DNA of 64,000 nucleotides, taken from an uncultured Winogradskyella sp. (GTDB taxonomy: Bacteria; Bacteroidota; Bacteroidia; Flavobacteriales; Flavobacteriaceae). Under the pieces are notes generated by a model. It worked only from the letters and a program-made list of their open reading frames with translations. It was not told the DNA's origin and made no database searches. The stretch is taken from the NCBI RefSeq assembly GCF_947498345.1, contig NZ_CANMJY010000006.1:1-64000 (forward strand), given 5' to 3'. Below, one piece after another: positions 21,870 through 46,506 of this stretch. The stretch's first letter is position 1; every line of letters begins with the position of its first letter. Both the position numbers and the translations under genes were made by a program.

Positions 21870-23561
21870 ATGCAACTTTCAGAACAAGAATTAGTACGAC
21901 GCGAAAAGTTAGATAAATTACGTGCTTTAGGAATTAATCCTTACCCAGCAGATTTATTTCCAGTCAATCACACCTCTAAACAGATTAAGGAGAATTACGA
22001 GGATGGCAAAAAGGTGATTATCGCTGGTCGTCTGATGGCTATTAATGTTCAAGGAAAGGCATCATTTGCACAATTACAAGATAGTGAAGGTCGCATTCAG
22101 GTGTATTTTAACAGGGATGAAATCTGCCCTGAAGATGACAAATCATTATATAACGATGTCTTTAAAAAGCTTATTGACTTAGGAGACTTTGTTGGTATTG
22201 AAGGTGAATTATTCACAACGAAAGTTGGTGAAAAAACAGTAATGGTTAAACAATTTCAACTGCTCAGTAAAGCACTTAAACCATTGCCAATACCTAAACA
22301 GAAAGACGGAGTAACATATGATGCTTTTACAGACCCAGAGCAACGTTACAGACAACGTTATGCAGACTTAGCGGTAAATCCACATGTAAAAGATGTTTTT
22401 GTAAAGCGTACGAAGCTATTTAATGCCATGCGGCATTTTTTTAATGATGCTGGTTACTTTGAAGTAGAAACACCAATACTACAACCTATAGCTGGCGGAG
22501 CAGCTGCTCGTCCTTTTGTAACACATCATAACAGTTTAGACATTCCTCTATACATGCGAATTGCCAATGAGCTTTATCTAAAGCGTTTGATTGTTGGCGG
22601 TTTTGATGGTGTTTATGAGTTCTCAAAAAATTTCCGTAACGAAGGTATGGACAGAACTCACAATCCTGAGTTTACTGCCATGGAAATTTATGTAGCCTAC
22701 AAGGATTACAATTGGATGATGGATTTCTGTGAAAAACTTTTAGAGCATTGCGCTATTGCTGTTAACGGAACTACAGAAGCTACTTTTGGTGAGTACAAAG
22801 TAGATTTTAAAGCTCCCTACAAACGTATCTCTATGCGCGATTCTATTTTAGAATTCACAGGATTTGATATTTACAACAAATCTGAAGACGAGATCAGAGC
22901 TGCAGCCAAAAGCATGAATATCGAAGTAGACAACACTATGGGCAAAGGTAAGTTGATCGATGAAATTTTTGGTGAAAAGTGTGAAGGCAATTATATACAA
23001 CCCACATTCATTACAGACTACCCTAAGGAAATGAGTCCTTTGTGTAAGGAGCATCGTGAAAACCCAGAACTGACTGAACGTTTTGAACTCATGGTTTGTG
23101 GTAAAGAAATTGCTAATGCCTATTCTGAGCTTAATGACCCAATAGATCAACGCGAACGTTTTGAGCATCAATTAGAACTCGCAAAGAAAGGTGATGATGA
23201 AGCTACAGGTACTATAGATTATGACTTTTTAAGAGCTTTAGAGTATGGTATGCCACCTACTTCTGGTATGGGAATTGGTATGGATCGTTTAATTATGTTC
23301 TTAACCAACAATCAAAGCATACAAGAGGTATTGTTCTTCCCTCAAATGAAACCTGAACAAAAGCAAGTTGCAATAAGTGATGAGGCCAAGTCTATTTTTA
23401 AAATTGTAAAAGATTATAATAAAGTTGAATTGAACTGGTTAAAAACACAAGTTGGGTTAAGTAATAAAAAATGGGACAAAAGCATTAAAGAGCTCACTAA
23501 GAATGCTTTAGTTGGTGTTCAAAAACTTCCTGACGGTACATTAGAAGTGTGGCTAGAATAA
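21870..23561 (+). CDS. lysS: Lysine--tRNA ligase, class II, with element-supplied C-terminal extension
   Basis: A 563-residue class II LysRS, which charges tRNA-Lys. It has the OB-fold anticodon-binding domain (about 50-160), motif 2 (FRNEGMDRTHNPEFTAMEIY) and motif 3 (GMGIGMDRLIM). The catalytic core ends at FFPQM near residue 493, about where E. coli LysS stops; a further ~70-residue extension follows. The 15-bp sequence encoding FPQM and flanking bases (23334-23348) recurs at 36707-36721, where it is followed by a second, roughly half-identical version of the same extension. The present 3' end from about 23349 onward therefore came with the integrated element and restores the frame. The protein is thus a natural chimera. 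A terminator at 23608 follows. Confidence 0.96.
   Translation: MQLSEQELVRREKLDKLRALGINPYPADLFPVNHTSKQIKENYEDGKKVIIAGRLMAINVQGKASFAQLQDSEGRIQVYFNRDEICPEDDKSLYNDVFKKLIDLGDFVGIEGELFTTKVGEKTVMVKQFQLLSKALKPLPIPKQKDGVTYDAFTDPEQRYRQRYADLAVNPHVKDVFVKRTKLFNAMRHFFNDAGYFEVETPILQPIAGGAAARPFVTHHNSLDIPLYMRIANELYLKRLIVGGFDGVYEFSKNFRNEGMDRTHNPEFTAMEIYVAYKDYNWMMDFCEKLLEHCAIAVNGTTEATFGEYKVDFKAPYKRISMRDSILEFTGFDIYNKSEDEIRAAAKSMNIEVDNTMGKGKLIDEIFGEKCEGNYIQPTFITDYPKEMSPLCKEHRENPELTERFELMVCGKEIANAYSELNDPIDQRERFEHQLELAKKGDDEATGTIDYDFLRALEYGMPPTSGMGIGMDRLIMFLTNNQSIQEVLFFPQMKPEQKQVAISDEAKSIFKIVKDYNKVELNWLKTQVGLSNKKWDKSIKELTKNALVGVQKLPDGTLEVWLE
23334..23348 (+). repeat. Left recombination core (attL) inside lysS
   Basis: TTCTTCCCTCAAATG, identical to 36707-36721 in direct orientation. 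It lies at the junction between the LysRS catalytic core and its C-terminal extension and marks the left edge of the integrated element. Crossover took place somewhere within these 15 bases. Confidence 0.85.
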
Positions 23562-23607
23562 TATACTTTGTTGTAAATACTATAGGGTTATTATAAATAA
23601 GTACTTT

Positions 23608-23637
23608 AAATAGGTTGCTTTTTAGCAACCTATTTTT
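23608..23637 (+). terminator. Terminator after the chimeric lysS
   Basis: AAATAGGTTGCT (23608-23619) and AGCAACCTATTT (23624-23635) form a perfect 12-bp stem with a TTTT loop and a T-tract. By the boundary argument it belongs to the element, which thus provides both a new lysS end and its terminator. Confidence 0.9.
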
Positions 23638-23644
23638 GTTGTAG

Positions 23645-23710
23645 ATAATAGCAGATTACATCAAAATACTTGTCACTTTATTGTCACTTGAAGATTTCAA
23701 TACTTCAGAA
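23645..23710 (+). repeat. Left subterminal repeat, putative integrase arm sites
   Basis: Begins ATAATAGCAGAT (23645-23656), then two TTGTCACTT copies (23670-23678 and 23681-23689) offset by 11 bases, then CTTCAGAA (23703-23710). The same three blocks recur in the same order and almost identical spacing at 36603-36669 near the other end of the element, which fits arm-type binding sites of a tyrosine integrase or its accessory factors. Confidence 0.6.
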
Positions 23711-23727
23711 TCTTTGGGATTTTTTCG

Positions 23728-23735
23728 TACCTTTG
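23728..23735 (+). promoter_or_regulatory. -7 promoter element at the start of the element
   Basis: TACCTTTG matches TAnnTTTG. The ATG of the small membrane protein begins only four bases later, so the transcript would be leaderless or nearly so, unless translation starts at the internal ATG at 23785. Confidence 0.5.
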
Positions 23736-23739
23736 ACTT

Positions 23740-23943
23740 ATGAGTCAAAAAGTACTACATATAGCATTATTAATCATTATAACAATGTTCATTTCATTGT
23801 ATTTAATATTTGGCCCATTCTCAAAAGCAATTGATGATTTCATATCTTCAGTGAATAATATATCTTCTATATTATCTTTATTAGTTACCTCAATTTTAGT
23901 TATACAATTGGAATTAAAAAAAAAAGAGTACGCTGTCATCTAG
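23740..23943 (+). CDS. Small membrane protein of the element
   Basis: A 67-residue protein with two hydrophobic segments (about 6-26 and 42-58) and a basic C-terminus containing KKKEY. I do not recognise a family. It is preceded by an exact -7 promoter element whose predicted start site falls at or next to the ATG. An internal ATG at codon 16 is an alternative start. It is the first gene after the replacement lysS end and is separated from the winged-helix gene by the TGTAC-repeat region. Confidence 0.45.
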   Translation: MSQKVLHIALLIIITMFISLYLIFGPFSKAIDDFISSVNNISSILSLLVTSILVIQLELKKKEYAVI

Positions 23944-23970
23944 CCTCTTTAGTTAATTGAACTTTTTTTA

Positions 23971-24084
23971 GTACATATGTACAAATAAAGGTAATGTACG
24001 GATGTACAATAAAACTCTAAATAATTATGTATTTTTGTCCTTGTACATTGTCTATTTATACAATGCACAAGGACTGAAGTACAT
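23971..24084 (+). promoter_or_regulatory. Operator-like repeat region with promoter and hairpin before the winged-helix gene
   Basis: GTAC-centred motifs are packed here: the palindrome GTACATATGTAC (23971-23982), TGTAC at 23995-23999, 24003-24007 and 24042-24046, and GTACAT at 24079-24084. A -7 element TATTTTTG lies at 24030-24037. Immediately after it, 24037-24051 and 24060-24074 form a 15-bp inverted repeat with one mismatch and an 8-nt loop, which would be the 5' leader of the transcript. This looks like a repressor-controlled promoter for the element's control gene, probably autoregulated; the binding protein is not proven. Confidence 0.6.
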
Positions 24085-24111
24085 ATTTTTAATTTAAAAA
24101 CATACAATAAA

Positions 24112-24633
24112 ATGATAAAAGATTTATTATCAACCAACTCGCTAATGCTTCAACAATATAACTTTCCTTTTATCGAATTAGAGACTGTCATTTTTTTTGA
24201 ATGGTTGATTGTAAAAAAATATTCTTTTAGAAAGAAAAAAATTGACAATTATGACTTCTTTTATTCATCTAAAAGAGCAACGAATGAAACTGGTATAAAA
24301 AGAAGAAAGTTGGAAAAGGTTATATCAATTTTAAGAGAAGATTTTGAAATAATACAAACTAAGATAGATGGGAATCCTAAAGTAACTCACTTTGCTTTAA
24401 ATTTTGAAAACATTGTTAGTCGAGAATTTATCAAATACCTATATAAGGAACAATATCGAATATCTGCCTTTAAGGAATGGCAAAATTTTAAAAGACTTAT
24501 TGAATTGAATGACAGTCATAAACCAGGTATTAATCACTCTCTACCGAATACCGAATCATTTGATGAATTTATGGATAATTTTCAAGATGGCGAAGATTAT
24601 AGGCCTAATAATGATATTGGCACTCCATTTTGA
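24112..24633 (+). CDS. Winged-helix-like DNA-binding protein of the element
   Basis: A 173-residue protein. Residues about 20-105 have the pattern of a winged helix-turn-helix as found at the N-terminus of plasmid and phage replication or control proteins: helix ETVIFFEWLIVKKYSF, then FYSSKRATNETGIKRRKLEKV as turn and recognition helix, then a beta wing ending VTHFALNFE. The C-terminal part is acidic and polar. It follows the TGTAC-repeat promoter and precedes the integrase, so it may be the element's regulator or a replication-associated factor. No specific family is claimed. Confidence 0.6.
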   Translation: MIKDLLSTNSLMLQQYNFPFIELETVIFFEWLIVKKYSFRKKKIDNYDFFYSSKRATNETGIKRRKLEKVISILREDFEIIQTKIDGNPKVTHFALNFENIVSREFIKYLYKEQYRISAFKEWQNFKRLIELNDSHKPGINHSLPNTESFDEFMDNFQDGEDYRPNNDIGTPF

Positions 24634-24639
24634 TTTTAA

Positions 24640-24660
24640 AACTAAGTACCAACTAAGTAC
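24640..24660 (+). repeat. Paired 10-bp direct repeat upstream of the integrase gene
   Basis: AACTAAGTAC occurs at 24640-24649 and again at 24651-24660, an 11-base offset, followed by TAACT. The AGTAC ends resemble the GTAC motifs of the operator region 0.6 kb upstream, suggesting the same regulator may bind before the integrase gene. Confidence 0.5.
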
Positions 24661-24801
24661 TAACTCTCTACATATCTAAGGTTTTTAATCATCAACCTAC
24701 TTTTGTTGCTAATAATAGTAAATAATACTCAAAATAGTGCATTCAATATAAGACTAAAGTCGAAATTGTCCATTAAATTTAATACACTAAACCATTTAGA
24801 T

Positions 24802-25872
24802 ATGTCTGTCAATTTAAGAACAAAATATTTGGGTACCATTAAGCTATCTCAAAAGAACAGACCTTATAAATATCAACTTGATTATTCACTTAATGGTAAA
24901 AGAGTAAGAGAAACGATTAAAGATGTCATTTTTTATCCCTCTGACACTAAAGAAGAAAAAAAACAAAAACTAAGAATCGTTAATAGAATTAAATCTCAAT
25001 TAGAAATTGAATTAGGTAATTCTAAAAATGGATTAATTTCGAGACAATTACAAAAAGCTAACTTTATAACCTACTTTGAGTTATTAGGAAAAAATAAAGA
25101 GGATAAAACACGTACTGCATGGAATAATACTTTAAAACATCTAATTGATTTTCAAGGTAAAAGAATAAAATTTGAAGATGTTTCAGCTACGTGGCTTGAA
25201 AAATTTATTGAATATCTTAAAAGTGAAAATCTGGCTGCAAATTCAATAGTTACATATTTCAATAAGGTTAATGCAGCTTTAAATAAGGCCGTGAAAGAAA
25301 GAATAATTATTGAAAATCCTTCTAAGTTTATAGAAAGGCCCAAAAAAGTAGAAACAGAAATAATCTTCTTAACAAAAGAAGAAATTCAACAAATAGTTCA
25401 AACTGATTTTTGGGACAATGAATCTAAAAATGCTTTTTTATTTAGTTGTTATACTGGACTAAGAGTTTCGGACATTAGAAACCTAAAATGGTCAAACATT
25501 AAGGATAACAAAATTCAATTAATACAGAATAAAACAAAAAAAGTAGTATATATACCATTGAATAACAATGCAAAAAACATATTAGAAAAACAAAAACATA
25601 ATGAAGGTTTAGTCTTTAAACTTTCTGAACATATTAGCTCAATAAACAGAACAGTTAAAAAGCTTATCAAATTAGCTGGTATAAATAAGAAAGTACATTT
25701 CCATTGTGCTAGGCATACTTTTGCAACTCTATTAGTAACATCAGGTGTAAACGTTTTTACAATTTCCAAATTGATGGGGCATAAGGATATTAAAAGCACT
25801 CTCGTCTATGCAAAAGTAATCGATGAAGAAAAACAAAAGGCAGTAGATAGTATGGTAAACTTAGAATTTTAA
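24802..25872 (+). CDS. Tyrosine recombinase (integrase) of the lysS element
   Basis: A 356-residue phage-type integrase. An N-terminal arm-binding-like region and a SAM-like core-binding domain (about 85-180) precede the catalytic domain with Arg221 (TGLRVSD), His301 and Arg304 (HCARH), His327 (MGHKD) and nucleophile Tyr336 (STLVYAKV), all intact. It should catalyse integration at and excision from the 15-bp core in lysS. The frame is open 33 codons further upstream, but MSVNLRTKYLGTIKL at 24802 is the natural N-terminus for Bacteroidota integrases. The next gene starts three bases after its stop, indicating one operon. Confidence 0.93.
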   Translation: MSVNLRTKYLGTIKLSQKNRPYKYQLDYSLNGKRVRETIKDVIFYPSDTKEEKKQKLRIVNRIKSQLEIELGNSKNGLISRQLQKANFITYFELLGKNKEDKTRTAWNNTLKHLIDFQGKRIKFEDVSATWLEKFIEYLKSENLAANSIVTYFNKVNAALNKAVKERIIIENPSKFIERPKKVETEIIFLTKEEIQQIVQTDFWDNESKNAFLFSCYTGLRVSDIRNLKWSNIKDNKIQLIQNKTKKVVYIPLNNNAKNILEKQKHNEGLVFKLSEHISSINRTVKKLIKLAGINKKVHFHCARHTFATLLVTSGVNVFTISKLMGHKDIKSTLVYAKVIDEEKQKAVDSMVNLEF

Positions 25873-25875
25873 ATT

Positions 25876-26583
25876 ATGGAATTAAAAGAGGTAAAAGCAT
25901 TAGTAGAGTACTTTGAAGATAGAATAATTAAAAACTTTGAAACCCACTTTAGCTATTTAGTTTTAGAAGACTTTTATGAAGGTGGTTATGACGATAGAAT
26001 AGAAGATGAATTTTATTACGACGAATACTACTCAAAGTATGAAAGTAATATTATAAACTTACTTTTAGAGATTGAGGACAATATGAGTAGTGAGTATATT
26101 AATCTGAAATTAAGATTAATTAAACTTAAACGAATAATTGATACTAGACTATCAAAAATTGAATCCAATATTAATCCCCCAATCAGGTCTAAAAAACGGA
26201 ACGTTCAGTTCATTTTAAATCCTAAAATAGAAAAAGAATTATTTATAAAAACACTACATATATTACTACTTGACTTTAAACTAATAAGTAGCAATTTCGA
26301 TAATTTTAAATCGCATTTCGATAATAATTGGCATGATAAAATTCAATGGTATGGTACTGAATTACAAATCACAAATTTCATAACTTTATTAATAGAAAAA
26401 GGACTACTTGATATTGAAACTCAAAATTTTAAAAACAAACTTATTACAGCTCACTTCACAAACAAAAAAGGCAATAATTATAAAGAGAAACAACTTAGCT
26501 CTGTTTTAGCTGATAAAAAAGCCTTAGTCCCTAATGATGATGTTATATTGAAAATAATTCAAGAATTGAGTACTAACTTTTAA
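25876..26583 (+). CDS. RteC-like protein of the element
   Basis: A 235-residue, charged and largely helical protein. The N-terminal two thirds have no motif I recognise. The C-terminal part, IQWYGTELQITNFITLLIEKG followed by a helical segment ending near LADKKALV, resembles the C-terminal domain of RteC, a regulator of excision in Bacteroides conjugative transposons. The match is to the pattern of that domain only. It starts three bases after the integrase stop codon, so it probably helps control excision or integrase activity. Confidence 0.5.
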   Translation: MELKEVKALVEYFEDRIIKNFETHFSYLVLEDFYEGGYDDRIEDEFYYDEYYSKYESNIINLLLEIEDNMSSEYINLKLRLIKLKRIIDTRLSKIESNINPPIRSKKRNVQFILNPKIEKELFIKTLHILLLDFKLISSNFDNFKSHFDNNWHDKIQWYGTELQITNFITLLIEKGLLDIETQNFKNKLITAHFTNKKGNNYKEKQLSSVLADKKALVPNDDVILKIIQELSTNF

Positions 26584-26649
26584 CTCATCTTTTACTTACT
26601 AAATAAACCTTTATAAATCAAGAGATTTACGTCATTATAAAATTTTATT

Positions 26650-26955
26650 ATGACAAAAATATCTCAACTCATTCTTGAAGTAAAACTTCTTAAAAAAGAA
26701 ATAAAGAAAAGTCATCTTTTCAGGAAAAGAATCTACACTATTAAAGAAGCTGCATTTGTAACTGGTGTTAGTATATCACAAATTCAAAAACTAATTGCTT
26801 CACGTAAAATACCTCATTCCAAACCCAATGGAAAGTTAATTTTTATTAGACGTAAAGACTTAGAATCATTTTTGATGAAGAACTATATCAAATCTAACGA
26901 TGAAATTGAAATGATAGTTACAAACACCATCCTTTCTAATAATAAGTTGAACTAA
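26650..26955 (+). CDS. Excisionase-like helix-turn-helix protein
   Basis: A 101-residue protein. Residues about 28-78 form a MerR/excisionase-type helix-turn-helix (HTH_17): YTIKEAAFVTGVSISQIQKL, then a wing with KPNGKLIFIRRKDLESFL. A basic helical N-terminus precedes it. Such proteins in Bacteroidota mobile elements act as recombination directionality factors or regulators. It lies 19 bases before the replication-protein gene and after the RteC-like gene. Confidence 0.8.
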   Translation: MTKISQLILEVKLLKKEIKKSHLFRKRIYTIKEAAFVTGVSISQIQKLIASRKIPHSKPNGKLIFIRRKDLESFLMKNYIKSNDEIEMIVTNTILSNNKLN

Positions 26956-26974
26956 TTTCCATAATAAGGAAACA

Positions 26975-27919
26975 ATGATAGACACAATTAAAGGCTATAT
27001 TGATTTAAATAGTAATACAGAAGTAAAGCATCTTATCGTTTTAGCCAAAAAATCAGAAAGTGAATATGGATTTAACGCCACATTCAATATAGAAAATATA
27101 AAACTAACTCTGAGACTAAATAGAGAAGGTAAACCTTTAAAACTTTACTTTAATGGTTCATTGCCTAAATTCTATTTTGGAAATAATGTTTCATATCTAA
27201 ATAAAGCAGATACCAAGAGTGCTATAACCAAGTTATCAGATTGTTTACGTATTAATATGTCAAAATCTATTTTAACAAGAGTGGATTGCGGTTTCAATAT
27301 TAATTTAAAGCATCCAGTACATGAATATATTGATTGTCTAGCCTATTACCCTCGTTTGGATTATATGCGTTACAAAGACTCTGTTACTTTTTTTAAGAAA
27401 CATGCTAGAATGAAACTATTGTTTTATGACAAAAAAAACGAGATTAGAAACAACTCTAAGGAACTTTTACACATTCATCCTGACCTATACCTCAACAAAA
27501 ACATATTACGCTATGAAATAAGCTTATATCGTCGTTTGAATACTTTTTTCAAAGTAGATAAATTCACATTAAACCTACTAATGAAACAAAGTATTGAAGA
27601 TAGACTATTAAGAACTTGGTCAAGTAGTTATTTTCGTGTAAAAAAAATTCAACTAGGAATAGACCCAAAAGAACTACTACATAATCATAACGGCCTATTT
27701 AAGTATTTGGCATATCATGGTATAGATAGGTTAGGATTTAATAAAACTATTAATACAATTTCACATCTTAATTTTAATGTAAAAAACCCAAGAAGTAAGC
27801 GTAGCAAGATGAAGAAAACAATTAAGGTTTTATTTGATGATGTTAATAAAAATACACTAGACAATAACTTAATAACAGAATTAGACTATAAAGTTTCCCA
27901 AATCAAAGATTATATATAG
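26975..27919 (+). CDS. Phage/plasmid-type replication initiation protein
   Basis: A 314-residue protein beginning MIDTIKGYIDL, the usual opening of phage/plasmid replication proteins of the gene II/X (rolling-circle) group. Further similar features are the strand pattern LRLNREGKPLKLYFNGSLPKF, TRVDCGFNI, and KNILRYEISLYRRLN, a conserved acidic/Tyr segment near residue 185. It probably nicks or opens an origin on the excised circle and starts its replication. Family assignment is by overall pattern, and I have not identified the catalytic tyrosines with certainty. The non-coding stretch after it is a candidate origin. Confidence 0.65.
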   Translation: MIDTIKGYIDLNSNTEVKHLIVLAKKSESEYGFNATFNIENIKLTLRLNREGKPLKLYFNGSLPKFYFGNNVSYLNKADTKSAITKLSDCLRINMSKSILTRVDCGFNINLKHPVHEYIDCLAYYPRLDYMRYKDSVTFFKKHARMKLLFYDKKNEIRNNSKELLHIHPDLYLNKNILRYEISLYRRLNTFFKVDKFTLNLLMKQSIEDRLLRTWSSSYFRVKKIQLGIDPKELLHNHNGLFKYLAYHGIDRLGFNKTINTISHLNFNVKNPRSKRSKMKKTIKVLFDDVNKNTLDNNLITELDYKVSQIKDYI

Positions 27920-28055
27920 TTCCTAAAACTTGTCCCCCAGAATTCTGTAAGTTCTGCTATTTTTATTAATACAAAGCGCCTTTATAAATACTACGAATTT
28001 TTACGCGCGCGATAAAGACAATTTATTTAACTTGTTGCAGAAAAAATTGCTGAAA
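27920..28055 (+). other. Intergenic junction between replication and cargo genes
   Basis: The stretch holds the palindrome CAGAATTCTG followed by TAAGTTCTGCT, a second partial copy, and the unusually GC-rich alternating ACGCGCGCGA in otherwise AT-rich DNA. No exact TAnnTTTG precedes the NACHT gene. It could be a replication origin next to its initiator gene, or simply the cargo promoter. Confidence 0.3.
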
Positions 28056-31000
28056 ATGACTGGAAAAGGGGATAATTTAGAAAATCAAGTTAAAATATTA
28101 TTTGAAAACTTATTGAAAGAATGTGGGTATACTGTCATTAAAAATCGCAAACAGAAAAGTGGTACACAAGATGGTTTTGATAATGAAATAATAATTGTTG
28201 ATGAGTTCAATAGAAGGTACAAAATTCATTTAGAATGTAAAGATTATTCTACAAAACTCAATTTCTCTGAGGCTATTGTAAAAATTCCTCAAATAGTCAC
28301 ATCGTATAAACCCGATATTCTAATTTTCTTGTCACCAAAAGTTCAATTTAGTAATCCATATAATGACACTCGATTGGTAGAATTTTATGAAAGATTTGAT
28401 GTGCCTATTGAATTTTTAACACCCGACAACTCAGTAGAAGAATTAATTGCTTTAGATGAAAGTATATATAAAAGTATTTATGGAGAAGTGCCCAAGTTTA
28501 AAGTTGACAGAAACGAAAAAATCGAATGGTTTAAAAAATTCATTTTTTCATCAAAGCCTTTAAAAAAAATAGTTTTAAATGAAAGCGATAGAATATCCTA
28601 CATAACAAATATTACTCTAATAGAAAATTATATTGAAAGGACTATTTGCAAAGCTTCTGACAGTAGAGAAGTCAGGTATTTTTATAATAGTAAACATGAC
28701 AATTCACTAATTAACCTTTGTAATTCATTTCTCAATTCAAAAAATCAAGATAGCGAAGGAATAGTAATACTTGGCAATCCTGGATTAGGTAAATCCATCG
28801 AATTAAAGAATTTAGCCATACATTTTTGGGAGAATTACAATTCAATAAAATGGGTGCCTTTTTACAGAGAAATTAGAACATTCACTTCATCTGACAAGAT
28901 AAGTGATTATTTACCCAGCAACTGGAACGAGATACCTCAACTATTAATCATTTTAGATGGGTTGGATGAGGTTTCCTATAGTCAAGATTTCTGTGCGAAA
29001 TTAGAGAAGTTTATAATCGATAATACTGAAAATAAAAATTCAATTCAATTTGTTCTAAGCTGTAGAACAAACATTTATGAAAACGTCATCAAGGATATAT
29101 CTAAGTTTGAAACTTATGTATTGAATAACATTTATTATTCAGATGCAATTAATTTCTTAAAAATTAATTACAACCTATTACAAAAAGATTCTAATAGACT
29201 ATCATTTTCTTATAATCAAAAAGAATTTTTAGAGAATCCATATTATTTAAGAATATTTGGAGAATATTACAAACAATATAGAAAACTTCCTTCAAACAAG
29301 AGTGATTTACTAAACAAATTTGTAGCCAAAAGACTTGAAGATGACAGAAAAAAATTTAAAAATAAAAACTTTGACAAATCAGATATAGAAAATAGCTGTA
29401 AAAAAATTGCTCTTTCTATGGAAGCCATGCAAATAAATGAAATTAAGGATTCGAAGCTTAGAATTATTCTTGGAGAAAAAAAAGATAATTTCACAGACTC
29501 TTCATTCTCAGAAAGAGTATTTGGAAAGGATAATTGGAAATTTGAGCACAGAAATCTGCAAGAGTATTTTGTTGCAAAATCTTTAAAAAACCTATCATTT
29601 CATGAAATAATAAATTTTATAAGATTAGATGAAAAAACCAACAAAACACATCCTTCTTGGCTAAATTCAATTTCATATCTTATTAGTGTATTAAATAAAA
29701 AATCAAATGAATACAAGGAATTAATTAATTGGTTAATAGAAAATGAACCTGAAGTGTTGTTCAAATCTGATTCTGATAGAATAAATCCACAAACTAGGTT
29801 TAAAATATTTAAAGATTATTTCAATAAAAGGTGTAAGATTGATACTTTATGGATAAGAAGTTATGATTCAGGAGTTATGGAATTAGCGAAATTTGCTGAT
29901 TGCGAAGATTCAGTAATCTTTTTGATTGATGAAATTAGAGATGAATCTAACCATAGAAGGGCAAGAATATCTGCAATTGATCTTCTTTCAAATATGGATT
30001 TGACTTTTAAAGCAAATCAAATTCAAGAATTAATACTATTTTTATTAGAGGCACCTGTAGACAAAGTAGATTTTCGATTCAAAGCAAATATTATTTATCA
30101 ATTTAAAAAACTTAATTATCATCTTGATTTAAGATTTTTAAACAAAATAATAAGTGTATTAAAAGATATTGATTTTCATGAAATCACAAGTGCCGTTTTG
30201 GGTTTAATAGAAGAAGTCGAAGTCGACTATTATTTCACTTACATCAAGAACTTAGCTCCTAAAATAACTGGGGATATCGAACGCAAATACAAGAAAACTG
30301 ATAACCTTTCAACCAATGAAGAAGGTAAACTAGAAAACATTCTAGTTAGTTTTAAAAATCCTAATCATTTATTATTCTCTATTGAATTTCTTTTGAGTAA
30401 TTCTAGCTCTTTTTCAACCAGAGAAAAGAAAGAAAATTTACAAAAAATAATAAATAAATTAAGCGAATTACACTTCAAAGATGACAATGTTTATAAAAAA
30501 CTGTTAGACTTTGTGGATAGTGATTTTTATGAAAAAACTTTTAGCTATGAATATGAAAAAATCATTTTCTCATATTTTGAAAAAACGAATACAACTGATA
30601 GAGCTTTTAATGATTTATATAAATCAAAATCAAATTTTGACTCCAAAAGAAAATTTCTGGTTTTATCTGCAAATAAAGAAAACATACAACAAATAATTAA
30701 AGACTATAAAAATAATATACTTGATAAAACTGAGGTTATTTATTTCACTAATAACTTATCTCATTATAATCATGATTTAGCATTATCCTTTCAGTCGTCT
30801 GTAGAGACTGAAACGGATATCCAATATAAGAAAAAATTGGTATCGGTTGATGAAAGAAACCGGTGGAACAATTTTCATAAGAACAAGCATCAATTAGGTT
30901 TCGATTTGTTATTTAAGAAAAATCAACTCCTGAAATTGGCTCAAGAATATTTCGATTATTCAAAAGAAGAAATAATTACTTGGGAAAACAATAGTGAATA

Positions 31001-32276
31001 CAAAAAGGAATTTTATGATAGTCTAGATTTACAATTAAAGTTTCCGCAAACTTTCATGGGGATCATATATGACAGTCTAAGAAATAATAATGGAAAAGTT
31101 AAAGTAGAAGATGTGAAAAAATTAATTAGAAATGAAATATTTCTATTCTATAAAATAAAAGATGAGATCACATCATCTCACAGTGGTTATTTTGAAATAA
31201 CATTAAAACAGGTAGAAGTAATAAAAAAATGGTGCAATAAAAACTTAGAAAAAGCTGATTTTAAAAATCACAATCAAAACACAAAGAAGTACAATCGCAA
31301 TAGATGTCATTTATTATGGTTTTTTAGACATCATTTTGATTTTCACTATGAAAAAGAGTATTTATTAGATATGTTATTTATAGATGGACGAATAAAACTG
31401 AATGAAAAAGAAATTGGTTATAAATATATTATAGACAAAGTTGATAAAAAGCTAATCGATGAACGGGTACTATTTAATTTACAGAATGTAGAATTAAATC
31501 AAATGATTTATGATAATCATATTAGTTATTGTATAGAAAATGAATTGAAAGAAGCATATCAAATAATCGAAGAATATCTAAAGAGTTATACTGATAGGAC
31601 CTATTTCATGAGCACTTTACTTTATTCCTATTTTGAAAAAACTAAAAGAATTGGACTATTAAAAAGTTTGGTTAAACCTCATCCAAATGATGAGCAAAAA
31701 GATGGTTTAACTTGGGATGCAATAAAACTACTTATTGCTAGTGAAGAATATGAATATGTAACAAAAAAACTATTAGAGTTTAGGAATTTAAAGCCAGAGA
31801 ATGAGGATTTACTAATAGTGATAAAATTTCTAATCAGATTAAATCATCATGAAGGATTTAAATTCTTAAATAAATGGTTCTCTAATGCGAAAAACAGAAA
31901 AAAGCAATTGAGAAATGTTCTAAGTACAGATGATTATTACGTTCATACCAATAAAAAGTCTATTCCTCATTTGGTTAAGCTTTTCAAAATATCCCATAAG
32001 TCTGATTGGGACTTTGATGAAATGCATCATCCTCGTCGTATATCACATGAAACTTTAGAGGTAATATGTCGCGAAAACGGACAAGAAGAATGCCTATTAG
32101 TTTTAAAACTCTTGGCTAAAACTAAAAATGAATTAAAATCCACTGGATTAGATTTATTCTACATTAATATTTTAATCAACGACATTACTCAACAACTTAA
32201 TAATCATAAGTCCAAATCGATGAGTTTTGAAGACCTTGTCAATAAAATTGAGCAATTGAAATACCTAATAATTTAA
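28056..32276 (+). CDS. Mrr-like nuclease-NACHT STAND protein, probable anti-phage defence
   Basis: A 1406-residue protein with three parts. Residues about 1-125 look like an Mrr-type PD-(D/E)xK nuclease: an Asp in TQDGFDNEI (39 or 42) and Glu60-x-Lys62 in HLECKDY. Residues about 230-510 are a NACHT NTPase: Walker A GNPGLGKS (240-247), Walker B LLIILDGLDE (296-305), sensor SCRTN (335-339), and the FEHRNLQEYF motif (496-505) typical of the domain's end. The remaining ~890 residues are helical and probably form a solenoid that recognises a trigger. Such nuclease-STAND proteins act as bacterial NLR-like phage sensors; here that role is inferred. Start: a TTG eight codons earlier is possible, but the ATG at 28056 is preferred. 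Confidence 0.85.
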   Translation: MTGKGDNLENQVKILFENLLKECGYTVIKNRKQKSGTQDGFDNEIIIVDEFNRRYKIHLECKDYSTKLNFSEAIVKIPQIVTSYKPDILIFLSPKVQFSNPYNDTRLVEFYERFDVPIEFLTPDNSVEELIALDESIYKSIYGEVPKFKVDRNEKIEWFKKFIFSSKPLKKIVLNESDRISYITNITLIENYIERTICKASDSREVRYFYNSKHDNSLINLCNSFLNSKNQDSEGIVILGNPGLGKSIELKNLAIHFWENYNSIKWVPFYREIRTFTSSDKISDYLPSNWNEIPQLLIILDGLDEVSYSQDFCAKLEKFIIDNTENKNSIQFVLSCRTNIYENVIKDISKFETYVLNNIYYSDAINFLKINYNLLQKDSNRLSFSYNQKEFLENPYYLRIFGEYYKQYRKLPSNKSDLLNKFVAKRLEDDRKKFKNKNFDKSDIENSCKKIALSMEAMQINEIKDSKLRIILGEKKDNFTDSSFSERVFGKDNWKFEHRNLQEYFVAKSLKNLSFHEIINFIRLDEKTNKTHPSWLNSISYLISVLNKKSNEYKELINWLIENEPEVLFKSDSDRINPQTRFKIFKDYFNKRCKIDTLWIRSYDSGVMELAKFADCEDSVIFLIDEIRDESNHRRARISAIDLLSNMDLTFKANQIQELILFLLEAPVDKVDFRFKANIIYQFKKLNYHLDLRFLNKIISVLKDIDFHEITSAVLGLIEEVEVDYYFTYIKNLAPKITGDIERKYKKTDNLSTNEEGKLENILVSFKNPNHLLFSIEFLLSNSSSFSTREKKENLQKIINKLSELHFKDDNVYKKLLDFVDSDFYEKTFSYEYEKIIFSYFEKTNTTDRAFNDLYKSKSNFDSKRKFLVLSANKENIQQIIKDYKNNILDKTEVIYFTNNLSHYNHDLALSFQSSVETETDIQYKKKLVSVDERNRWNNFHKNKHQLGFDLLFKKNQLLKLAQEYFDYSKEEIITWENNSEYKKEFYDSLDLQLKFPQTFMGIIYDSLRNNNGKVKVEDVKKLIRNEIFLFYKIKDEITSSHSGYFEITLKQVEVIKKWCNKNLEKADFKNHNQNTKKYNRNRCHLLWFFRHHFDFHYEKEYLLDMLFIDGRIKLNEKEIGYKYIIDKVDKKLIDERVLFNLQNVELNQMIYDNHISYCIENELKEAYQIIEEYLKSYTDRTYFMSTLLYSYFEKTKRIGLLKSLVKPHPNDEQKDGLTWDAIKLLIASEEYEYVTKKLLEFRNLKPENEDLLIVIKFLIRLNHHEGFKFLNKWFSNAKNRKKQLRNVLSTDDYYVHTNKKSIPHLVKLFKISHKSDWDFDEMHHPRRISHETLEVICRENGQEECLLVLKLLAKTKNELKSTGLDLFYINILINDITQQLNNHKSKSMSFEDLVNKIEQLKYLII

Positions 32277-32283
32277 TATCAAT

Positions 32284-32291
32284 TATATTTG
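32284..32291 (+). promoter_or_regulatory. -7 promoter element after the NACHT gene
   Basis: TATATTTG, an exact TAnnTTTG match, begins eight bases after the NACHT stop codon. A transcript from here would start near 32297 and run through the long hairpin toward the small exported-protein gene. It would begin with a four-codon frame (ATGAAAGTTTTTTAA). Confidence 0.55.
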
Positions 32292-32361
32292 CATGAAAGT
32301 TTTTTAAAGAAACTAAGTTCTTTACATACGAAATATACGATAGGCATTAGTCATCTAATAA

Positions 32362-32483
32362 CTTGGACGAAAACTGGTAATTTTCAATCAATCAAGTAGA
32401 AAAAGATGAACTGATGCCCATGTCTCTAATGGGCATGGGCTTAGTTCGCTTTACTTGATAGGTATACCAGTGCCTCGTCCAAG
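32362..32483 (+). ncRNA. Long nested hairpin, candidate structured RNA or DNA element
   Basis: Five co-linear complementary blocks nest into one 122-nt hairpin: 32362-32370 with 32475-32483 (9 bp), 32373-32379 with 32465-32471 (7 bp), 32391-32398 with 32452-32459 (8 bp), 32408-32412 with 32443-32447 (5 bp), and at the tip 32414-32421 with 32429-32436 (8 bp, 7-nt loop) or 32416-32422 with 32434-32440 (7 bp). A -7 promoter element lies 70 bases upstream. No protein reads through it. It is too long for a plain terminator; it could be a regulatory RNA, a single-strand origin, or a leader for the next gene. The strand is assumed from the promoter. Confidence 0.55.
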
Positions 32484-32564
32484 GAGTGGGCTTTAGTACC
32501 ATGCCTTATTCTTTTCAATAATTTTTTAATCTAGGTACTGGGTTTTCATAGAATAGAAACCAAT

Positions 32565-33035
32565 ATGAAACGATCTAATTTCCTTACCCCTGCTGGTTTG
32601 GTAGTTATTTTACTAACTACAAACCTTTGCAAAGAATCTACTCAATTAAACGAGACATATGAAGAAAAAAAGGATACCATAAGAGAAGAAAACAAATATG
32701 ACTATTTATTTATTGATTTAGGTGATTATGAAAATGTACCATCACAAGAAGAGTTTGAATATTCAGAATTTTGGAGAAAAGAGGCATTCAAAGCGTCATC
32801 AAAATTTATTGAGAATGAAATTAATAAAAAACCTAACTGCACATTAATAAAACAGGGCCATTATCAACCTTATCTAATTAGATACCTAGGTGGATTTGGT
32901 TTTTTAACAAAGCACTACTGCGAATTTGATTGCAAACAAGGGTATAATAACCCATCTAATTTTTGGGTTGAAGTATATTATAGGGGTTACAACAATTGGT
33001 CTGCTCAAATCATAAAACAAAAGTTTGTCGATTAA
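32565..33035 (+). CDS. Small exported protein of the element cargo
   Basis: A 156-residue protein. The N-terminus (MKRSNFL, then a hydrophobic stretch to residue 22) is a signal peptide; the residues before Cys22 (TNLC) are only a weak lipobox, so lipid attachment is uncertain. The mature part is acidic at first, then has aromatic and Cys-containing strands (KHYCEFDCKQGY, VEVYYRGYNNWS). I do not recognise the family. It lies between the hairpin and the 1153-aa gene in the same orientation, with 96 bases to the latter. Confidence 0.65.
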   Translation: MKRSNFLTPAGLVVILLTTNLCKESTQLNETYEEKKDTIREENKYDYLFIDLGDYENVPSQEEFEYSEFWRKEAFKASSKFIENEINKKPNCTLIKQGHYQPYLIRYLGGFGFLTKHYCEFDCKQGYNNPSNFWVEVYYRGYNNWSAQIIKQKFVD

Positions 33036-33131
33036 ATCGTTTTTAATAAATATCTTTTAATGCTCATATTAAAATTGATGTAATAATAAATGTTAACTTT
33101 AGAACAAGCTTAATTTTAGTTCTAAAAAAGT

Positions 33132-36100
33132 ATGCCATTAAACAGACGTGAATTCATAGGGAAAGCAGGGTATAGTTTATTATTCTTAAATATACTTTAC
33201 TCCCTTCCTTATTCAAGAAATTTAATATCACTTTACTCACAAGAAAAAATAAAACCAAGTTCACTTTTTTTAAATGAATTAATTTATCTATCAAAAAATG
33301 AAGACGAAAAAAATAACATTAACACATCTTTATTTAGATTGATCGGCGCTAAAAATAATATAGACCCCGCATTTGACTTAGATAATTATTTAAAAGGACA
33401 AGGATCGTATCGCGGACCATTTAGAAATGATGTTTATCTATCATACGACGAAATAGACATGCTCGTTAAATCATATAATCCTTATACAGAATCTTGGTGG
33501 GTAACTGGTGAAGATGTAGCAGGTGTTTTAGGGCTTGTAACAGGCATCCCTGGGATATTTTACAAGCCATTAGGAATTGCTAGCCTAGCTCTTGGTGCTG
33601 GAGCAATGTATTGTGGAAATGAAGAAGATCAAAATTATCAACGGCATTTAATACATCAAAATCTACAGCGCAAAGCATACCATCTTTATAATAATGACTT
33701 GTTAATTAAAAATTATTTAGTAGAAGAATCTAATGATCTTAAATTCGAATGGACAGAGGATGAAAAAGATAATTTCATTAACAACTATCTTCTAGAAAAT
33801 TTTGAGTCTGATTTCTCTAAAAAGGTTAAAAAGTATTTTGGTGAGAGGTTAATTATTCAAGAAAACTCTATAAGAGAGTTTATTAAAGATCAAAACAAAT
33901 CAATAGAAGATGCGAAGAAAAAAGTTAAAGAAATAAGAGAAGAAAATTATAAAAACAAATACCAATCTGAACAAGAATTTATTAATTCAAAGAAAATTTT
34001 AAATAAATTATTACTTGAAGAACAAAGAAAAAATGCTGAAAAGCAGATGTTTTTTAATTCAATAAATAATTTTCTCTCATTCACAATTGAACAGACTAAT
34101 GGAAGTAATGATACAAAAGTATTACTTTCGGGGATAAGTCAATTGGCAATGCACTACGCAGTTTATGGTAAGCTTGGACCAGGAGCAGTTTCGACAATTA
34201 TGATGTCAACGTTTATAGGTCTTAATTCAAATGATAATAATGATGGTTTCCAGAAAGCAATCGAACAAATATTTAAGTACTTCGATCAAATTTTAGAAAT
34301 GCTTGAAGATATCAATACTCAGCTTACTCAAATAGAAAAAAATCAATATAGAGTACTTAACGCTGTACTAAGTAATCAAAAACTGATTAAGCAAAGTATG
34401 TCACTAACTCAAAATCAATTTTTACAACTAAAAAGCGACATAGCAAATTCATTTGAAGGTATTCGCTTAGAGAATGCAGAGTTAAACAACGATCTTTTTG
34501 AAGGAAAATACAAGGAACTGATCGAAAAAAACATAACAGATAATATTGTTTTGACAGAAAAGTTTAACGAATTCATTGACCTTTGTGAGATAAAACTAAA
34601 CAACATTCAATTTACTGGTAGACAAGATAAATTATTATCAGGAAGAAATTTTTCTGACGTATTTAACTTTTCACATTTAAAGAATGAATTTGATGAAATT
34701 AAATTCAAAAACGGAATCACATTTAAAAGACCTATTTGGTTTGACATTTATTCTAGAATTGGCTTATTACCTCAAACTCAAAAGTGGTTAAATAAAAATG
34801 TAACTGAATTAAATTCAATTAGCAATCCGAGATTAGTTAATAAACATCTTGCACCTCTTTTAAGTTTAATTTTTAAATCACATATTCTAAAAAAAACAGA
34901 CAAAAAGTCGTTATATGAAAGAATAAAATCTTGGGCTAGAAGTGAAAATGAAAAAATAAAAGCATTGGCAGATTGTGACTCCTTGTATAAAATAACTAAT
35001 CTCTATATAGATAATTGGAAGTCTCTGTTGATTAGACTAAATAACAGCCTAGATGGACTAATGAATGAAGAGCTTAAGAATGCGATAAATAGTCATGGAA
35101 TATCTATAAAATTTAGTGACACAAAGGAATCCGAAAAATTTAATAATAGTGATTACGGTGGTCGTCTAAGATATTTACATTCGGAATTGACAAAACATAA
35201 AATAATTAATTCCGCATATATTAAATCTAATAAAATTCCTAAAGTTTATGTAGAAAATAATTCGATTACTGAAAAACAACCAAAACCAATCAAATACTTT
35301 TTTGAAAATGAATTTGATATTATTTCTCTCGCCAAGAGCTTAGGTATAGTACAAGAAATGAGGGCAGAAGCGATCCAAAAAAGTCCGAAATTCTTCTATC
35401 TTCAAAATGCCCCATATGCCCATTTGCATGGCATGAATAATCAATACTTATATCTAATAAACAATAAAAGATCTGTACGTGATGCCCAATTAGCCGCTCA
35501 GAATGCAAAAAAATCAATTGGAACTGCTCAAGATGTTAAATTAATAAGTTATCGTCTAACTAGACCTAATGGTAAAAGTTTCAATTTTTATATTAGAACA
35601 GGAAAAATGGTAAGGCATGCCGAGCATAGATTTATACCAGTTGCTACAGGAAATCATCTTTACGCCGTACCAATAATGTCTTGGCAAAATTTTATTTGCA
35701 TCGGTACCAAAATTAAGTCTACTGATCCATGGAATAATAATTCTAATGTTACAAAGTCTTGGAAAAGTAATTTTGCTAACTCGGATGATTTTCTTTCTGA
35801 TATAAATTCTAATATTCTGACAAGTATTGAGAGTAAAAAAAAGAAAAACACGAAACAAGATGAATATGACAACATCACTTTTTTTGAATATTTAACAATT
35901 CTTTGTTTAGTTAAGTTAAATAAAGAAATTACAAACAACTATGTAAGTTCCTACTTCACTCTCTACAGGAGTGATTTTAAAGATATTTCGAATATTACCT
36001 ATTCTGAGTTTGGGTCAAATGATTATACGAAACTCTTGGATAAAGTATTAGGAATATCAACAAGTCTTTGCATCATCAAATCTGTAAATCGTAAGCTGTC

Positions 36101-36593
36101 TAAACCAAATTATTTTTATATCCCTATAGAAAATTCAACACTAAAAGAAATTAATCCCATTGGGTTGCCTCTTGAAGATTATCCCTTGGATCAAGTAAAT
36201 TCAATATATTCACATGAAGACTTGATTAAGTATTTATATCCTCTTTTAATCCAATTATTAAATGCGAATTCCAATTCAATTGTGGAAACTTTAAAAAATT
36301 TAGAATCATTCGAAAATTATCCAGAGTTTAAAATTATTACAGAAAAAGATTTTATGATAAGGAAATTATTTGATATGATCGAAAATAATTCTAGGTTCAT
36401 TCTTGAAAATAGTTCTCCCTTGGATGACAAAACTATTTACGACTATCATTACGCTGAAATTTTAAACAGCATTGAATTTCTTTCCAATAATAAATCTAAG
36501 AAAAACAGTACATTAAGTACAGTACTTTTAGCTGGTAGTGCCATCGGTTTAGGATATTACGGATATAAAAGATTTATAAAAAGGAAGAATTAA
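33132..36593 (+). CDS. Large protein with Tat-like signal, coiled coils and C-terminal anchor
   Basis: A 1153-residue protein of unknown family. The N-terminus MPLNRREFIGKAGYSLLF has twin arginines at 5-6 followed by Phe and a hydrophobic stretch, as in Tat signals. A Gly-rich hydrophobic segment follows at about 129-163. Charged coiled-coil stretches lie at about 256-313 and 377-466, separated by another hydrophobic segment near 335-360. A mixed alpha/beta region without recognised motifs fills about 470-1120. The end (about 1127-1146) is one hydrophobic helix followed by KRFIKRKN, a tail anchor with basic cytoplasmic end. Hence it is probably a large envelope protein. It is the last gene before the right boundary. 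Confidence 0.7.
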   Translation: MPLNRREFIGKAGYSLLFLNILYSLPYSRNLISLYSQEKIKPSSLFLNELIYLSKNEDEKNNINTSLFRLIGAKNNIDPAFDLDNYLKGQGSYRGPFRNDVYLSYDEIDMLVKSYNPYTESWWVTGEDVAGVLGLVTGIPGIFYKPLGIASLALGAGAMYCGNEEDQNYQRHLIHQNLQRKAYHLYNNDLLIKNYLVEESNDLKFEWTEDEKDNFINNYLLENFESDFSKKVKKYFGERLIIQENSIREFIKDQNKSIEDAKKKVKEIREENYKNKYQSEQEFINSKKILNKLLLEEQRKNAEKQMFFNSINNFLSFTIEQTNGSNDTKVLLSGISQLAMHYAVYGKLGPGAVSTIMMSTFIGLNSNDNNDGFQKAIEQIFKYFDQILEMLEDINTQLTQIEKNQYRVLNAVLSNQKLIKQSMSLTQNQFLQLKSDIANSFEGIRLENAELNNDLFEGKYKELIEKNITDNIVLTEKFNEFIDLCEIKLNNIQFTGRQDKLLSGRNFSDVFNFSHLKNEFDEIKFKNGITFKRPIWFDIYSRIGLLPQTQKWLNKNVTELNSISNPRLVNKHLAPLLSLIFKSHILKKTDKKSLYERIKSWARSENEKIKALADCDSLYKITNLYIDNWKSLLIRLNNSLDGLMNEELKNAINSHGISIKFSDTKESEKFNNSDYGGRLRYLHSELTKHKIINSAYIKSNKIPKVYVENNSITEKQPKPIKYFFENEFDIISLAKSLGIVQEMRAEAIQKSPKFFYLQNAPYAHLHGMNNQYLYLINNKRSVRDAQLAAQNAKKSIGTAQDVKLISYRLTRPNGKSFNFYIRTGKMVRHAEHRFIPVATGNHLYAVPIMSWQNFICIGTKIKSTDPWNNNSNVTKSWKSNFANSDDFLSDINSNILTSIESKKKKNTKQDEYDNITFFEYLTILCLVKLNKEITNNYVSSYFTLYRSDFKDISNITYSEFGSNDYTKLLDKVLGISTSLCIIKSVNRKLSKPNYFYIPIENSTLKEINPIGLPLEDYPLDQVNSIYSHEDLIKYLYPLLIQLLNANSNSIVETLKNLESFENYPEFKIITEKDFMIRKLFDMIENNSRFILENSSPLDDKTIYDYHYAEILNSIEFLSNNKSKKNSTLSTVLLAGSAIGLGYYGYKRFIKRKN

Positions 36594-36602
36594 CAATCGC
36601 AA

Positions 36603-36669
36603 ATAATAGCAGATAAATCATTGATTTCTGTCACAAAATTGTCAGACTCGATAAGACAACGCTTCAGAA
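36603..36669 (+). repeat. Right subterminal repeat, putative integrase arm sites
   Basis: ATAATAGCAGAT (36603-36614), then TGTCAC and TGTCAG at 36629-36634 and 36640-36645 (11-base offset), then CTTCAGAA (36662-36669). Order and spacing copy the left block at 23645-23710: 26 bases from the first block to the first TGTCAC in both, and 58 versus 59 to CTTCAGAA. It lies about 40 bases inside the right core. Confidence 0.6.
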
Positions 36670-36706
36670 AACCAGTATCAATAAAGGTTTTAATATATTA
36701 GTTTCA

Positions 36707-36721
36707 TTCTTCCCTCAAATG
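36707..36721 (+). repeat. Right recombination core (attR)
   Basis: TTCTTCCCTCAAATG, identical to 23334-23348. From here the lysS frame continues without interruption to a stop at 36931, so this is the chromosomal side of the original target site. Confidence 0.85.
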
Positions 36722-36931
36722 CGACCAGAGAAAAAGCAAGTGGCTTTGAGTGATAATGAAAAAGCCATTTTTGAGATTTTAAAATCTCAAAAACGTATGG
36801 TCTTAAATGACTTAAAGTCACAGTCTGGGCTTAGTAATAAAGGCTGGGACAAAGGTATTAAAGGACTTGGCAAACATGGCTTAACCAAGGTTGAAAAAAC
36901 TGAAGAAGGTTTGTTTGTTGAGTTAATATAA
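36707..36931 (+). pseudogene. lysS: Displaced original 3' end of lysS
   Basis: Starting in the core repeat, the frame reads on from FPQM into MRPEKKQVALSDNEKAIF and ends GLFVELI. It aligns over its length with the C-terminal extension of the intact LysRS at 21870-23561, with about half the residues identical, including GLSNKxWDKxIK. It lacks the catalytic domains and is a 3' remnant cut off by integration. The core repeat ends in ATG, in frame, so a 70-residue peptide could in principle still be made, but no promoter is evident directly upstream. Confidence 0.9.
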
Positions 36932-46426: not shown

Positions 46427-46432
46427 CTGGAG

Positions 46433-46506
46433 TGACCACGGCAGGATTCAAACCTGCGACCGCTGGAGCCGAAATCCAGTGCTCTATTCAGCTGAGCTAC
46501 GTGGCC
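46433..46506 (-). tRNA. tRNA-Arg (anticodon UCG)
   Basis: Read on the minus strand, the 74 nt fold into a standard cloverleaf: acceptor GGCCACG with CGTGGTC (one G-U pair), D arm GCTCAGCTGAATAGAGC, anticodon stem CTGGA/TCCAG with loop TTTCGGC and anticodon TCG, and T arm GCAGG-TTTGAAT-CCTGC. The discriminator is A; CCA is not encoded. It follows the YqeY-like gene by 12 bases and may be co-transcribed with it. Confidence 0.97.

Follow-up and report, generated by a model that had tools for sequence, protein, structure and literature searches.

Introduction

Prophages and genomic islands that insert at the 3′ end of a protein-coding gene and keep that gene are familiar from icd of Escherichia coli, and the piece restored by such 3′-end islands is usually short. 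Published reports describe the same arrangement for SGI1 at the 3′ end of trmE (PMC8409611) and for islands at the 3′ end of guaA (PMC4701971). The gene for lysyl-tRNA synthetase (LysRS), lysS, is likewise a published target. The vanD islands and the integrative and conjugative element (ICE) of Enterococcus (Tn6711-Tn6713, ICEVREfm_vanD) occupy the lysS 3′ end; their 13-bp repeats, for example TTCCCAACAATGA, lie 17 bp from where the gene ends (PMC8301612, PMC10765050). Streptococcus ICEs with a tyrosine integrase use the lysS 3′ end, with direct repeats formed by the final 17 bp of the gene in one element and by 13 bp slightly more internal in the others (PMC4701971), and vanG-family ICEs of S. 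suis also lie in lysS (PMC7168690). Here we describe an element of ~13.4 kb that very probably integrated within lysS of an uncultured Winogradskyella sp. (assembly GCF_947498345.1, contig NZ_CANMJY010000006.1, positions 1 to 64,000; this 64-kb stretch is referred to below as the window).

The closest known elements are islands that restore the 3′ end of the gene they target, and what is new here is that the site is internal to lysS and that a full extension is exchanged. The element shares with those at icd, trmE and guaA the insertion at a gene 3′ end with the gene kept, and differs from them in target gene and phylum. Read by eye, the Enterococcus repeat encodes F-P-T-M, a frame consistent with the 17 bp that remain before the gene ends; these are the same codons as in our window, and 10 of 13 bases match its TTCCCTCAAATGA. 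With only 17 bp remaining, little protein can change in Enterococcus, whereas here a whole 70-aa extension follows the core and is exchanged entire. The authors of the Streptococcus study also report very little change of the LysRS end, in another phylum and with other cargo (PMC4701971). The Enterococcus vanD elements are 112-143 kb long, compared with 13.4 kb here, and conjugation genes are reported there as absent from the three Tn elements and incomplete in the ICE; none were found in the window's island. A search of the open-access literature for lysS or lysyl-tRNA synthetase as an integration site in Bacteroidota found no report among the papers listed, which is not proof of absence; a Paracoccus paper among them mentions 'lysyl' solely in a cited reference. 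The original prediction, made from the window's sequence, had called the use of an aminoacyl-tRNA synthetase gene as attachment (att) site unusual; given the published lysS sites, this wording should be toned down.

Results

Two lysS ends bracket an integrase-bearing island

The 15-bp direct repeat TTCTTCCCTCAAATG has exactly two copies in the window, both on the forward strand and separated by 13,373 bp (Table 1). As had been predicted, a complete LysRS extension stands behind each copy, the left one within intact lysS and the right one as an orphan, and a tyrosine integrase (PF00589, E 2.7e-27) is encoded between them. Its catalytic set R, H-x-x-R, H, Y can be seen by eye. The prediction had also placed both copies in the same orientation and frame. 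The orientation holds; the frame is that of the right copy's own tail, not of an upstream gene, and we found no clear lysS similarity upstream of that copy. At the protein level, the left and right extensions are identical at 37 of 69 positions. The G+C content of the island is 27.4%, compared with 33% in the 10 kb on each side.

The tail beyond the island is the native lysS end

We next asked which extension belongs to the host. Of 68 genomes searched for the genus, including the window's own, 29 others gave readable lysS loci, which we compared tail by tail. In every one of these relatives, the lysS tail is nearer the orphan (53-65/69 identical) than the tail now fused to lysS (31-36/69). 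Thus the predicted empty-site gene, in which FFPQM runs directly into the extension now found beyond the island, is present in 29/29 relatives, while the present extension occurs in the lysS of none (0/29). This agrees with the proposal that the island brings its own lysS 3′ end and displaces the original.

Joining the two flanks at the repeat by script yields a 562-aa LysRS, as long as that of every one of the 29 relatives (563 aa is seen in 0/29), and this joined protein is the better match in each of them. The joined DNA aligns unbroken across the junction over 4,190 bp to one relative (L005) and 3,225 bp to another (L013), at 77% identity each. Both are empty sites, with the gene at 37000-38400 directly after lysS.

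The body of lysS tells a different story from its tail. The body is nearest its own genus (93-96%, compared with 74-90% for G157, Flavicella sediminum ALS 84 (G069), Gaetbulibacter saemankumensis DSM 17032 (G222) and G228), and the best match of the present tail among 397 family genomes is in another genus (G157, 76%). In a body-versus-tail plot of empty-site genomes, the present tail falls 3.0-3.7 standard deviations below expectation against five own-genus members, whereas the orphan tail is not below expectation (+0.4 to +2.3 standard deviations). Twenty of the genomes in this plot had been selected because they ranked high in similarity to the present tail, and the pairs are not independent; pairs with G157 and G359 were dropped because the stretches of their lysS bodies available were too short, and these two were compared apart. 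The orphan is not decayed, differing from the tail of L004 by 22 synonymous and 4 amino-acid-changing codons. Following insertion, the target lysS is intact and in frame, with its native end displaced beyond the right attachment site (attR).

The same site is used by related islands in other genera

Among the matches listed from the 397 family genomes (own included), the nearest integrases are those of Flavicella (68% identity), G228 (58%, C-terminus missing) and Gaetbulibacter (54%, a fragment). All four of the listed integrases with at least 54% identity, the window's own included, lie beside lysS. The next listed ones reach at most 39%. Within this lower tier, lysS adjoins none of nine integrases viewed with wider flanks (L067-L071 and L113-L116, of which L113 sits 0.7 kb from the end of its contig), nor any of 27 viewed with ~1.5-kb flanks (L036-L062), four integrases being common to both sets. 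The G228 homolog begins at the position corresponding to ATG 24802, making this a better start for the window's integrase than the listed TTG 24703.

The Flavicella island is 9.4 kb long and runs in the order lysS, tail, terminator, arm sites, integrase, a 235-aa protein (p235), excisionase-like protein (Xis), replication protein (Rep), its own cargo, a relative of the window's 156-aa open reading frame (ORF), arm sites, core and orphan tail. Its AsmA-like downstream gene stands beside lysS, island-free, in three of four other members of its genus with a readable locus (G303, G454, G464). In Gaetbulibacter, the same codons of lysS are occupied by a 4.3-kb relic that retains a piece of an integrase ahead of its right end. 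In G228, the integrase and lysS lie 4.2 kb apart on the same stretch, and a contig end cuts the island so that the left half alone is present. Integrase, p235, Xis and Rep are common to the window and Flavicella islands (p235 is found in 2/359 family genomes, these two), and G228 and Gaetbulibacter show only integrase parts. The Gaetbulibacter and G228 integrases are closely alike by eye, and at the DNA level the lysS tails of these two genomes agree better (184/207) than the lysS bodies do (1193/1479; Fisher p 0.004).

Two or more tails occur in 7/397 family genomes: besides the window's own, Flavicella, Gaetbulibacter and G271 were examined, and G260, G344 and G392, listed with 4-6% contamination, make up the rest. 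Searching the genome collection with a right-end pattern gave three places, two of which, in Flavicella and Gaetbulibacter, are included by construction. The third, in a Flavobacteriaceae metagenome-assembled genome (L088), is again followed by an orphan lysS tail. Next to that tail, by eye, is an MNT/HepT toxin-antitoxin-like pair (L088:584-1211). A comparable right end, whose core differs slightly, is present in G378, and a decayed one in G271.

Searches further afield gave no close relative of the integrase. A scan of the genome collection contigs returned 34 pattern matches, none confirmed; viral contigs gave no match to the end pattern and 19 integrase loci at 21-39% identity; phages (1207 records) and plasmids (the best 5000 records) all stayed below 60% identity. 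Separately, the window's own genome encodes another member of this broad integrase family (38%) away from lysS (L071, G000:C5:239757-240815), and such broad-family integrases occur at E 1e-60 or better in 23/67 other genomes of the genus.

Island ends share arm-type modules at fixed distances

We aligned eight ends: the right ends of the window, Flavicella, Gaetbulibacter, L088 and G378, and the left ends of the window, Flavicella and G228. Common to them is a module resembling GCAGATAATAGCAGAT, after which come GTCAC repeats spaced 11 bp apart; some bases vary. At all five right ends, the distance from the start of the first GTCAC to the last core base is exactly 91 bp (the L088 search pattern allowed ±3 bases). 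At left ends, it begins 334-351 bp past the core start in all three. Across both strands of the window, GTCACN6GTCA occurs solely at 23672 and 36630, beside the two ends. By analogy with known tyrosine recombinases, these modules look like arm-type integrase sites.

Table 1. Features of the lysS island and its flanks in the 64-kb window
Feature	Position	Strand	Evidence or remark
lysS, whole frame	21870-23561	+	intact, 563 aa
Host lysS body, canonical LysRS to FFPQM	21870-23348	+	Pfam tRNA-synt_2; NCBIfam TIGR00499 lysine--tRNA ligase, residues 3-496
Left core repeat (attL core), codes FFPQM	23334-23348	+	exact repeat
Probable island-borne lysS 3′ end, 70-aa extension fused to lysS	23349-23561	+	unlike own-genus tails, 29/29 relatives
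Predicted intrinsic terminator behind new lysS end, island part	23608-23635	+	very similar hairpin at same place in Flavicella island
Left arm-type site module (putative)	23644-23694	+	GTCAC at 23672 and 23683
173-aa ORF	24112-24633	+	no match in three related loci searched (L063, L064, L065)
Tyrosine integrase (Phage_integrase, SAM_5)	24802-25872	+	68% identical to Flavicella lysS-site integrase; 58% to that of G228 over part present
235-aa protein (p235), no family	25876-26583	+	66% identical in Flavicella island
Excisionase-like HTH_17 protein (Xis-like)	26650-26955	+	64% identical in Flavicella island
Replication protein, G2P N-terminal domain (Phage_CRI)	26975-27919	+	45% identical in Flavicella island
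Cargo: 1414-aa NACHT/nSTAND3 NTPase, possible defence protein	28032-32276	+	domain match; N-terminus nuclease-like by eye
156-aa ORF, lipoprotein-like by eye	32565-33035	+	C-terminal part 57% identical in Flavicella island
Cargo: 1153-aa ORF, no relative found	33132-36593	+	profile, genome and plasmid searches
Right arm-type site module (putative)	36601-36660	+	GTCAC at 36630, 91 bp before last core base
Right core repeat (attR core)	36707-36721	+	exact repeat
Orphan, probably the host's own displaced lysS 3′ end, 69 aa	36722-36931	+	53-65/69 identical to tails of 29/29 relatives
Host gene after lysS in L005 and L013	37000-38400	-	directly follows lysS in both relatives

Gene content and cargo

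The integrase, Xis-like and Rep frames remain open. Searches of seven island ORFs against PHROGs, with the NACHT gene left out, returned families of integration/excision and replication and no virion genes, apart from one head-closure match at E 0.007 only. The NTPase part of the NACHT protein matches antiphage EruA weakly and locally, at 36 bits where the cut-off is 1000; the protein has no match in PADLOC or among solved structures. For the 1153-aa ORF, no match was found in Pfam, NCBIfam, PHROGs, PADLOC or plasmids, and its single occurrence among 169 family genomes is itself. By eye it has a Tat-like start and a C-terminal membrane-like stretch.

Cargo differs from island to island. That of G228 includes a UG13a reverse transcriptase of the DRT defence set (E 1e-219; L064:9276-11096) beside two ORFs, that of Flavicella an NA37-domain protein with no strong PADLOC match, and the Gaetbulibacter stretch holds an AraC/TPR-type regulator gene and one further ORF. 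It is plausible that this cargo is partly of defence type, with a role as defence carrier best supported for G228.

The exchanged tail is an extra piece that also varies without a visible island

The solved bacterial LysRS structures 3a74 (Geobacillus) and 1e1o (E. coli LysU) end within a few residues of those encoded by the core. The ~70-aa tail is an extra piece, found in 376/397 family genomes and in 19/128 genomes drawn from the phylum. A literature search for a LysRS C-terminal extension in Bacteroidetes listed a single paper, which was unrelated. A profile of the tail (23349-23558, 36722-36928) gave weak, non-significant matches to solved structures (PscE 7ueb, E 0.017; LrpA regulator, E 0.6), and by eye it resembles a small winged-helix domain.

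Two genomes of one genus (g91), G157 (L072/L073) and G359 (L124/L144), are identical over the last 90 residues of the lysS body and have tails that are 67% alike. At the DNA level the two cease to be similar ~42 bp past the tail start and match again from the terminator on; G359 alone has a 778-aa ORF in the intervening stretch. In the stretches examined, we found no relative of the window's integrase and no arm motif. On this comparison, the lysS tail seems to have been exchanged without a visible island.

Discussion

We consider it very probable that the window holds an integrated genomic island resembling an integrative mobilizable element, that its tyrosine integrase recognises the FFPQM codons of lysS, and that lysS was resealed with the island's tail and the host tail orphaned. 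The boundaries, the direction of the swap, the empty site, the homologous islands, the conserved arm sites and the open frames, all read from sequence, support this account. Because the site is internal to lysS, a complete 70-aa extension of foreign lineage has to come with the island and takes the place of the host's.

In the mechanism we propose, the attachment site of the circular form (attP) would consist of the right arm sites, the 15-bp core, a complete lysS 3′ end with its terminator, and the left arm sites. The integrase would recombine the core of attP with the same codons in chromosomal lysS, LysRS would be resealed in frame with the island's 70-aa extension, and the host end would be left orphaned beyond attR. 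The excisionase-like protein may direct the reverse reaction. We infer that integrase and excisionase are active, that the circle forms and can be transferred, and that the hybrid LysRS works; a defence role for the cargo would be a further expectation.

Several observations weigh against this account. Neither an excised circle nor an empty-site subpopulation has been observed. Pfam and NCBIfam searches of eight island ORFs found no relaxase, coupling protein or type IV secretion system. An integrase of this type is present in only 1/68 genomes of the genus (724 bits; the next scores 244), and none of the other 67 has a second tail among the matches listed (to ~E 2e-6), so that no strain-level polymorphism is seen. 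In the related islands, the Gaetbulibacter left end is without an arm module, the Gaetbulibacter and G228 integrases are broken, and relatives within the Flavicella genus do not clearly separate its left from its right tail. At the protein level those two tails are 89% alike, which could reflect a close donor or subsequent conversion.

The alternative that survives best is that this strain retains the island merely as a dead remnant, an old site-specific insertion that is now fixed. We regard this as possible though doubtful: the missing evidence of excision and the relics at this site in other genera (Gaetbulibacter, G271) are consistent with it, while the open frames for integrase, Xis-like protein and Rep, the presence of both arms and both cores, and the undecayed orphan argue against it. 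A further alternative is that homologous recombination, not site-specific integration, placed the foreign DNA and its lysS end, or later exchanged the tail. Island-free tail exchange seems to occur in genus g91, given a tail difference with neither a relative of the integrase nor an arm motif in the stretches examined, and gene conversion could explain the similarity of the two Flavicella tails. At the present site, however, the integrase adjoins the insertion, arm modules stand at fixed distances at both ends in the window and in Flavicella, and the same boundary recurs at the same codons across several genera, making this explanation improbable.

Still harder to sustain is the proposal that the right tail is the foreign one, with the island lying just downstream of an untouched lysS and bearing a decoy lysS end on its right. 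Two tails would be seen in that case as well, but the orphan rather than the fused tail matches the genus in 29/29 relatives (unless all of these were swapped too), and the downstream gene follows the orphan as it follows lysS in L005 and L013. Four other candidates were rejected. On its own, a 15-bp repeat in homologous codons carries modest weight, but it exceeds chance because the right copy has no clear lysS similarity upstream, the structure recurs in other genomes, and GTCACN6GTCA occurs only beside the two ends. Duplication of the tail within lysS is rejected on the strength of a native orphan and a foreign present tail, and a prophage on that of the PHROGs search of seven island ORFs. 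A tRNA-gene att site does not fit either, the one tRNA detected in the window lying at 46432-46506.

The lysS island provides a clean case of a mobile element that, on inserting, exchanges 70 residues at the end of an essential synthetase; it is accompanied by empty sites, an intact relative, a relic and ends that are conserved. With its relatives it forms a small family of lysS islands in Flavobacteriaceae whose cargo varies and is in part of possible defence type, and whose att structure is predictable and could serve to find further islands or as an integration site. The same lysS codons are used by elements from two phyla. More tentatively, the FPxM codons of lysS may serve as an att site across phyla, with Bacteroidota islands spreading alternative LysRS C-terminal domains. 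If so, the lysS 3′ end would evolve horizontally and stay swapped after island loss, and the swap may alter a LysRS surface used by phages or toxins. Whether island-borne exchange drives the evolution of this synthetase's end becomes testable.

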